NCBI RefSeq assembly: GCF_029338395.1
Contig: NZ_CP119809.1
Location: 434,001-498,000 of the forward strand
Length of the DNA: 64,000 nucleotides
Reading direction: 5' to 3'
From: Halorussus caseinilyticus
Lineage (GTDB): Archaea; Halobacteriota; Halobacteria; Halobacteriales; Haladaptataceae
Shown here: in pieces, positions 15,626 through 62,879 of the stretch
How positions within the stretch are numbered: position 1 is the first letter of the stretch
Layout: each line of letters opens with the position of its first letter
Program-made: the position numbers and the translations under genes
The notes under the pieces: generated by a model
What the model saw: the letters and a program-made list of their open reading frames with translations, nothing else
Databases searched by the model: none
What the model was told of the DNA's origin: nothing

Positions 15626-15643
15626 TCGGCCCATCGCCCGCCA

Positions 15644-15693
15644 GCGAACGCTCCGCTGACCAATCCACCGCGAACGCTCCGCTGACCAATCCA
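15644..15693 (+). repeat. two 24-nt direct repeats, period 26
   Basis: GCGAACGCTCCGCTGACCAA plus TCCA occurs exactly at 15644-15667 and again at 15670-15693, immediately before family-1 copy A. A related pair (13-nt repeats at 38393-38405 and 38418-38430) sits at the same place before copy C. Confidence 0.8.
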
Positions 15694-15825
15694 TCGGGGT
15701 GGGATAAAGGGGCCGCCCGCTCGCGGGTCGCAGACCCGTGGTCGTCTCAGCGACCCCTCTCCGGAGCGAACGCAGTGAGCGACGGAGATGTCGCTGAGCG
15801 ACCGCGAGCGGGCGGGGGCTTTCTA
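15694..15825 (+). ncRNA. dispersed family-1 structured element, copy A (diverged)
   Basis: It begins CGGGGTGGGATAAAGGGG and ends GGGCGGGGGCTTTCT. The ends pair: AAAG with CTTT, an internal G-rich loop, then CCGCCCGCTCGCGG with its exact complement. Inside, CTCAGCGAC (15746-15754) pairs with GTCGCTGAG (15790-15798) around CTCCG/CGGAG and the loop GAGCGAACGCAGTGAGCGA. The outline matches copies B and C but most stem bases differ while pairing is kept. It lies 3' of the PhzF gene, same orientation. I do not recognise a named RNA family. Confidence 0.6.
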
Positions 15826-15844
15826 AACCTCGTTCTCTCCGACG

Positions 15845-16040
15845 CTGACGACTCCGACGACAATGACCGAGACGACAACAGCGACGACTCCGACAACGAC
15901 CGAGACCACTCCGACGACAGAAACCGCAGAACCAGCACCGACGACAACCGAGACCACAGAACCAGCAGAGACGACCCCGAAGACGCGGACGAAAGCCCTC
16001 GTTCCCCAAAGCCTACGTCACCGCACCGAGAGGTCCACGG
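15845..16040 (+). other. low-complexity ACN/GAC-rich tract
   Basis: One frame from an ATG at 15863 reads a Thr/Glu/Pro-rich stretch (TETTTATTPTTTETTP) and another reads Asp/Ser-rich. Neither continues into a protein-like sequence and neither has a clear promoter. It resembles the linker DNA of secreted haloarchaeal proteins and may be a remnant. Confidence 0.4.
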
Positions 16041-16043
16041 ACG

Positions 16044-16403
16044 ATGAAGTGGCAGGCCCTCGTCGTCGGACTGCTCGCCGTCTTCGTCACCGCCGCCGCG
16101 GGGGTCCTGTCCGGGCCGTCGGTCCTCCTGCTTCTGGCGTCGGGACTCGTCGGCGGCGTCGTCACCGGCTATCTCGCCGGAGGACTGACGAGCGGTCTCG
16201 GACACGGCCTGCTTCTGGGCGTCGTGGTGGTCGCACTCGGTGCGGGACTCGGGGCGTGGGTGCTGTCGTCGCCGGACCCCCAACCGTACCCCGGAGCGGG
16301 GATGGCGCTCGTCCTCTGGTGGGTGGTCGCGGGTCTGCTCGGCGCGGAGGCCGTCGTCGGTGGACTCGTCGGCGGGGGTCTCGGCCGAATTCGCGGCAGG
16401 TAG
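16044..16403 (+). CDS. glycine-rich four-helix membrane protein
   Basis: A 119-residue protein, nearly all hydrophobic, with helices at about 4-22, 25-50, 52-75 and 85-112 (GLLAVFVTAAAGVLSG, LASGLVGGVVTGYLAGGL). The composition resembles haloarchaeal DUF5518 proteins, whose role is unknown. It is convergent with the APH-family gene and its stop touches the end of that gene. Confidence 0.75.
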   Translation: MKWQALVVGLLAVFVTAAAGVLSGPSVLLLLASGLVGGVVTGYLAGGLTSGLGHGLLLGVVVVALGAGLGAWVLSSPDPQPYPGAGMALVLWWVVAGLLGAEAVVGGLVGGGLGRIRGR

Positions 16404-29901: not shown

Positions 29902-30103
29902 CGGGGTGGGATAAAGGGGCCGCCCGCTCGCGTTTACCGTGGTCGTCTCTGCGGGCACTATTCGAGCGAGCGAAGCGAGCGAGAATATCCCGCAGAGCGG
30001 CCGTCTGCGGAGCGAAGCGACGCAGGCCTCGGAAGTCGCACGCCCGCGCAACGTAGTGAGCAGGACCGTCTTCCGGCGGCGACCGGGCGGGGGCTTTCTG
30101 GGC
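29902..30103 (+). ncRNA. dispersed family-1 structured element, copy B
   Basis: A 202-bp block whose reverse complement is found unchanged at 38185-38386. The ends pair (AAAG with CTTT and a G-rich internal loop, then a 12-bp stem with one C-C mismatch). Inner hairpins are CTCTGCGGG (29947-29955) with CCCGCAGAG (29989-29997), CTGCG/CGCAG (30005-30009/30021-30025) and CGGAAG/CTTCCG (30030-30035/30070-30075). Loops carry GAGCGAAGCGA-type words. It begins 31 bases after the BtuF-like gene stop, same strand. Several arginine-rich reading frames here are not coding. Confidence 0.7.
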
Positions 30104-62684: not shown

Positions 62685-62879
62685 GTCCGAGTCTGAGGGG
62701 ACCGACTCGGATGAAGGTACGGGAGAGTCGCCGTGGCGAACGCCCCCGCTCGCGAGCGGCCGCTTTCTCTCGCCCGAAAGTCGGATTCGGAAAGTTCGAC
62801 GAGGCTTAGAGAAATATAATCCGTATTCTAAGAAAGAAAATAATTGCTCTAGAGATTGTATACAATCGTCTCGCGGTTC

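Follow-up and report, generated by a model that had tools for sequence, protein, structure and literature searches.

A Large Halobacteriales Family of Short, Probably Mobile Repeats With a Covarying Branched Fold, Possibly Recognised as Single-Stranded DNA

Introduction

The SMR-A and SMR-B elements of Haloquadratum walsbyi (HqIRS42, 43 and 55) are about 110 bp long and transposase-free, and their mobilisation is enigmatic (PMC3119063). The REPs are dispersed intergenic palindromes that are recognised as folded single-stranded DNA and contain bulges that are functionally required (PMC8266576). The Haloquadratum SMRs are the nearest described kind to the element reported here, and the bacterial REPs are also near.

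The element was encountered in a 64-kb window of a Halorussus genome (the window being the whole stretch of DNA that was analysed), which holds three copies, A, B and C. All three are best explained as members of a large Halobacteriales family of short non-autonomous mobile elements that would be recognised as folded single-stranded DNA, an explanation to which we give roughly even chances.

The Family and Its Fold

The family is a repeat of about 120 bases with about 80 copies in the source genome (4.39 Mb, five contigs). A pattern search of this genome returned 81 places, approximately 76 of which were real copies on inspection, and blastn added more; copy counts from the pattern, BLAST and capped covariance model (CM) searches are to be read as at least the number given, being lower bounds. 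The consensus of the wider family is GGGTGGGACTGAAAGGGG...GGGGGCTTTC, and a definition by GGGATAAAGGGG alone was discarded as too narrow.

From the ends inward, the helices of the fold are P1, P2 (13 bp), an optional P3 hairpin, P4 (4 bp), P5 (9 bp) and P6 (TAT.../...ATA), the last of which leads to a capped tip that varies. P1 and P2 are separated by a GGG x GGG internal loop, P4 and P5 by a one-base bulge, and P5 and P6 by an asymmetric loop with CCC or CNAC on its 5' side and T on its 3' side. The GGG/GGG and CCC/T loops, the single-base bulge before P5 and the tandem GA mismatches are unpaired yet conserved. What is conserved is a specific branched single-strand fold and not a mere palindrome. 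The covariance model recovers all three copies in the window (Table 1). The motif at the 5' end has three exact matches in the window, compared with 0.03 expected by chance when up to three mismatches are allowed.

Table 1. Positions of the element and its parts in the 64-kb window.
Feature	Position	Strand	Observation
Tandem units of ~25 nt, AGCGAACGCTCCGCTGACCAATCCA, upstream of copy A	15640-15694	+	Accompany most copies; outside the moving unit
Copy A, conserved ends and fold	15695-15824	+	Exact motifs; CM R1 match 104.8 bits, E 1.2e-19; folding energy -79.9 kcal/mol, z -4.5 versus dinucleotide shuffles
Copy A 5' end motif CGGGGTGGGATAAAGGGG	15695-15712		Exact
P1 5' arm AAAG	15706-15709	+	Partner CTTT at 15819-15822; AAAG/CTTT becomes GAAG/CTTC in other copies
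GGG of the conserved GGG x GGG internal loop	15710-15712	+	Partner at 15816-15818; alignment columns invariant
P2 5' arm CCGCCCGCTCGCG	15713-15725	+	13 bp; double changes in 6 pairs
P3 side hairpin GGGTC-GCA-GACCC, GNA triloop	~15725-15737	+	Missing from B and C
P4 5' arm GTCG	15741-15744	+	Partner CGAC at 15799-15802
P5 5' arm CTCAGCGAC (central stem of the sequence-only reading)	15746-15754	+	Covariation among copies
Internal loop, P6 and apical cap	15755-15789	+	Cap GA-AC-GCA-GT-GA at 15768-15778
P5 3' arm GTCGCTGAG	15790-15798	+	Pairs with CTCAGCGAC
P2 3' arm CGCGAGCGGGCGG	15803-15815	+	Covariation alignment
Copy A 3' end motif GGGCGGGGGCTTTCT	15810-15824		Exact
GGG loop partner and P1 3' arm CTTT(C)	15816-15823	+	Right end of the unit
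Copy B, containing the nested 76-nt module	29902-30099	+	Motif matches; CM
Copy B P5 arms CTCTGCGGG / CCCGCAGAG	29947-29955 / 29989-29997		Copy C arms identical
Nested two-hairpin module, ~76 nt	~30003-30078	+	In B follows the P4 3' arm and precedes the P2 3' arm; also in C
Copy C	38386-38189	-	Motif matches; CM; 100% identical to B over 206 nt, flanks unrelated

Repeats of other kinds adjoin the element. The array upstream of copy A has counterparts before most copies (among them L021, L031 and L067), with units of approximately 25-27 nt and a consensus like ACGCTCGGCCGACCAACCGCCAGCGA. Some of these units could form a small hairpin (e.g. CGGTG...CACCG), and the array stops exactly at the G-rich 5' end of the element. 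Immediately 3' of copy A, at 15841-15990, lie degenerate AC-rich repeats (GACGACTCCGACGACAGAGACC) that are also found 3' of L007, L022, L032 and L356. Downstream of many copies (L009, L012, L031, L324-L328) there are tandem units of about 55-66 nt, each of which ends with an extra P2 3' arm and GGGGGCTTTC (CGTAGCGAGCGGGCGGGGGCTTTC), which could leave several 3' arms in competition for a single 5' arm.

Coevolution of the Stem Arms

The covariation alignment comprised 50 copies from Halorussus and related MAGs, including three from Haloarcula plasmids. Over 34 pairs, 98.8% of cells hold standard pairs. Double changes occur in 15 of these pairs and amount to 141 cells, compared with 37+-6 in shuffled alignments and 3-12 with slid structures. 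The covariation score was 0.255, as against 0.080 after shuffling (0/500) and 0.01-0.06 with slid structures; related copies inflate the shuffle comparison, while the slid control keeps relatedness and still lies below the observed value. The pairing-preserving base changes proposed by the sequence-only reading are thus real, the end motifs and central stem arms that it placed in copy A match exactly, and in this structural alignment of haloarchaeal copies the stem arms do not vary independently.

Individual stems show the same behaviour in larger samples. Among 181 candidates selected blind to complementarity, P2 pairing is bimodal, with at least 10 of the 13 positions paired in 116. The P5 cells of 117 parsed elements comprise 1017 Watson-Crick, 11 G.T, 6 A.C and 19 other combinations; this central stem exists in more than 25 fully paired sequence versions, and its position 4 is occupied by all four Watson-Crick pairs (AT 53, TA 31, CG 17, GC 13). 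At a locus adjoining a probable pyruvate kinase gene, which the source genome shares with genome G124, the stems differ, being CTCTGCGGG/CCCGCAGAG and CTCCTCGAC/GTCGAGGAG in the two genomes' copies.

The comparison of A with B and C, from which the suggestion of compensatory change came, holds for the difference in the stem, but B and C are identical to each other and their layout is unlike that of A, with an extra nested hairpin module of about 76 nt and without the P3 side hairpin. Within the window the identical B and C amount to one observation. The compensatory claim is therefore strong only through the copies found across the genome and the genus.

Nested Modules and Variant Copies

Nested two-hairpin modules are found at several different loops (that of copy B and those of L002, L019, L026, L033, L056, L069, L076, L078 and L224) and leave the helices of the element largely intact. 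A second type of inner hairpin (CGCGCTCGGCGAACCCCGG...) lies between the same conserved ends in L001, L018, L027, L046 and L066. Collapsed copies of 34-51 nt, reduced to the ends with all or part of P2, are represented by L014, L037, L052, L063 and L065. A weak CM match (24 bits) at 62738-62776 of the window contains a short palindrome, CGCCCCCGCTCGCGAGCGGCCGCTTTC, and is perhaps a collapsed copy.

Distribution and Mobility

A blastn search with copy C and its flank gave matches in all 18 Halorussus genomes, most of them with tens of element matches, and copy number ranges from tens to more than 100 in most Halorussus genomes. G124 has 113 places, and other Halorussus have 0-30 of the end variant seen in the source genome. 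The CM search, which applied strict filters, detected members in 67 of the 195 Halobacteriales genomes covered and in 21 of 66 genera; with at most 18 candidates scored per genome, many Halorussus have at least 18 copies and genus g21 has 1-3.

The gap that holds copy A is element-free in 17 relatives. In two of these genomes, G136 and G171, the PhzF-like and phosphotransferase neighbours are kept and are directly adjacent. The stretch absent from these two genomes also contains an ORF (16044-16403) for a predicted membrane protein of 119 amino acids, located between copy A and the phosphotransferase gene. The gap of copy C is empty in G114 and G156, and in G124 it is occupied by a copy with a different stem. 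The empty orthologous sites are too diverged for junctions, an exact target site or a duplication to be read from them. Between copies that are 97-99% identical, flank identity ends no more than a few bases from P1 at either end, which indicates that the ends of the unit coincide with P1. All 146 parsed copies are intergenic and none lies inside a gene predicted by heuristic calls (codon log-odds). The family behaves like a mobile repeat. Gene conversion among old copies might also have made them near-identical.

An exclusive role as a 3'UTR or terminator was ruled out, as copies occur in all orientations. Copies were not clustered in orientation by replication arm (runs P 0.20, arc P 0.46), and a lagging-strand bias was not seen in these data.

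The Folded Strand: DNA or RNA

GNA loops with two or more closing G-C pairs are known, very stable DNA mini-hairpins (PMC4686876). The P3 loops are GNA in 39 of 43 cases (N = C 17, A 17, G 3, T 2), and closure by two or more G-C pairs was likewise found for 39 of 43. The tip, with the order GA-stem-GNA-stem-GA, is present on the element's own strand in 36 of 47 source-genome copies and on the other strand in none of the 47, and its inner pairs covary (GC/GC 19, AC/GT 14, ACC/GGT 3). Features of the fold that appear on one strand only assign it to the + strand as drawn. G.T pairs exceed A.C pairs by 27 to 13, a modest excess (P 0.04) that agrees with the assigned strand and fits RNA and single-stranded DNA equally. 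GNRA tetraloops were absent from all 106 apical regions. By its loop preference, GNA triloops and no GNRA, the folded molecule would seem to be single-stranded DNA rather than RNA. GNA loops can form in RNA also.

We infer the single-stranded state, the recogniser and the route of movement as follows. The folded DNA strand would be recognised while single-stranded, during replication, repair or plasmid transfer, by a putative enzyme or other protein that would bind it and also move or copy the unit. Such recognition would select for coevolving stem arms while the sequence drifts, and hairpin modules would come and go in the loops. A search for the mobilising enzyme found no Y1_Tnp domain in the source genome (PF01797, 0 matches), and across the genus the element lay by 0 of 10 Y1 loci and 1 of 30 TnpB loci. 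An origin from IS200/IS605 ends or PATE was rejected on these counts, which show no link to TnpA or TnpB.

The alternative that survives best, though we think it doubtful, is a family of structured noncoding RNAs, transcribed as small RNAs or UTRs, with a fold that is bound by protein or tunes mRNA ends and that has spread by duplication. Covariation together with conserved internal loops is typical of structured RNA, and some copies begin right after a stop codon. Orientation in the source genome gives this explanation slight support, with 27 sense and 11 antisense copies in co-directional gaps; however, many copies occupy divergent or convergent gaps (11 and 8, respectively, in the source genome), and orientation to the neighbours in other species is near random (20 to 15). 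Nor does the Haloarcula alignment contain a conserved promoter-like block directly upstream of the element. The loops are GNA triloops and not GNRA or UNCG, and Rfam gave no match at either gathering or permissive thresholds. The sequence-only reading had proposed an RNA structure under selection; the copies do maintain a specific branched fold in which unpaired motifs are conserved, but orientation, mobility and loop code do not support its identity as RNA.

Haloarcula Plasmids and the OB-Fold Gene

A different setting for the element is seen on Haloarcula plasmids. Protein and element searches of a plasmid collection found an OB-fold gene of the 'SOSS complex subunit B family' (58-100% identical) on 12 Haloarcula plasmid records, and all 12 carry one element beside it, 486-671 nt upstream and divergent. 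In an alignment of 11 of these regions the element forms a conserved island of non-coding sequence (0.76-0.92 in 40-column windows, versus approximately 0.4-0.5 in the flanks). On pNG500 it is located about 4 kb from VirB4/VirD4-like genes, near the annotations 'conjugal transfer protein' and 'type IV secretion system DNA-binding domain'. On a Haladaptatus plasmid an element lies next to a related OB-fold protein (E 9e-16). The Haloarcula OB-fold gene has the folded strand as its template, and in the Frpo single-stranded DNA promoter of the F plasmid the folded strand is likewise the template strand. The region upstream of the OB-fold gene (L443 2010-2500 on pNG500, and its orthologs) contains more conserved palindromes with variable loops, including GTCTTTC...GGAAAGAC and CGGGTG...CACCCG near the gene start, and is a candidate plasmid origin or leader.

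These plasmid observations would fit a single-strand control element of plasmid type (a transfer origin, initiation site or single-stranded DNA promoter) that became dispersed into Halorussus chromosomes. As a general account this is improbable, since only 2 of 30 OB-fold homolog loci in Halorussus have an element nearby, no nick site, relaxase or promoter could be recognised, and common descent may account for the region that the plasmids share. There is a similarly small chance that the branched single-stranded DNA fold is kept by selection and acts on Haloarcula plasmids as an initiation, transfer or promoter element beside the ssDNA-binding-like gene, and that amplification has given Halorussus chromosomes about 100 copies of it.

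Palindrome Maintenance and REP Transposition

Template switching could maintain DNA palindromes by copying one arm onto the other, with no selection on the fold. The stems are very well paired, and L048, L059 and L078 combine mismatched arms from two stem types, which suggests that arms are exchanged occasionally. Such copying would erase the conserved mismatches (GGG/GGG, CCC/T, the bulge and the GA tandems), yet these persist, and G.T intermediates exist in L016, L019, L045 and L067; as an explanation of the family, template switching is very unlikely. Movement as bacterial-type REP elements by a RAYT (Y1 HUH) transposase, for which the intergenic, palindromic, high-copy character and the bulged stem could speak (PMC8266576), can hardly be credited, given about 80 copies in a source genome that lacks Y1_Tnp, Y1 loci of relatives that lack the element, and a 5' flank that is GGGTGGGA[T/C]T-like with no GTAG-type tetranucleotide.

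Significance

If folded single-stranded DNA is indeed what is recognised, the family would be among the clearest cases in which comparative covariation, usually read as evidence of RNA, reflects selection acting on a DNA fold, and the loop code (GNA versus GNRA) would become a test that separates DNA from RNA. If the molecule is RNA, it would represent a large unannotated family of structured RNAs in Halobacteriales, one that even the model species Haloarcula marismortui and H. hispanica carry. On either reading, about one-third of the sampled Halobacteriales genomes contain an unannotated conserved element, and one that is open to direct assay in tractable archaea.

Comparison With Known Systems

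No description of the element was found in Rfam or in the open-licence PMC papers that were searched. In the text of open-licence PMC papers GGGATAAAGGGG occurs once, in an unrelated paper, and GACTGAAAGGGG does not occur; a phage collection gave no match.

The family resembles haloarchaeal MITEs in being short, non-coding and multicopy with inverted ends. A parent transposon was not found, nor was a target duplication at the diverged empty sites, and the ends hold GGG x GGG mismatches and so are not symmetric duplex repeats. It shares with structured noncoding RNAs of the Rfam type a covariation-supported fold of several helices and conserved loops, and differs from them in its GNA loops, its mobile-element copy numbers and the lack of an Rfam match. 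The Haloarcula copies recall Frpo and the leading region of the F plasmid in that the fold lies by an OB-fold gene, the template strand is folded and some of the plasmids have type IV secretion genes; this likeness is one of position and strand only, and the present element is archaeal and dispersed in Halorussus chromosomes. Like the elements of the REP/REPIN-RAYT (TnpA-REP) system, the copies are dispersed intergenic palindromes with bulges, but their fold is much larger and branched, GTAG is lacking and the source genome has no Y1 transposase.

The Haloquadratum SMRs are also haloarchaeal, belong to the same class of about 110 bp, have prominent inverted ends without a known transposon, number up to tens of copies and show insertion of hairpin within hairpin (PMC3119063). 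The present family agrees with them in size, inverted ends, multiple copies and the lack of a transposase. The SMRs target near-terminal palindromes of IS605 and PATE, whereas the present copies lie in ordinary intergenic DNA and such targeting is not seen (1 of 30 TnpB loci). Compared by description, the present family is further set apart from the SMRs by its occurrence in at least 21 genera and by its branched, covarying fold.
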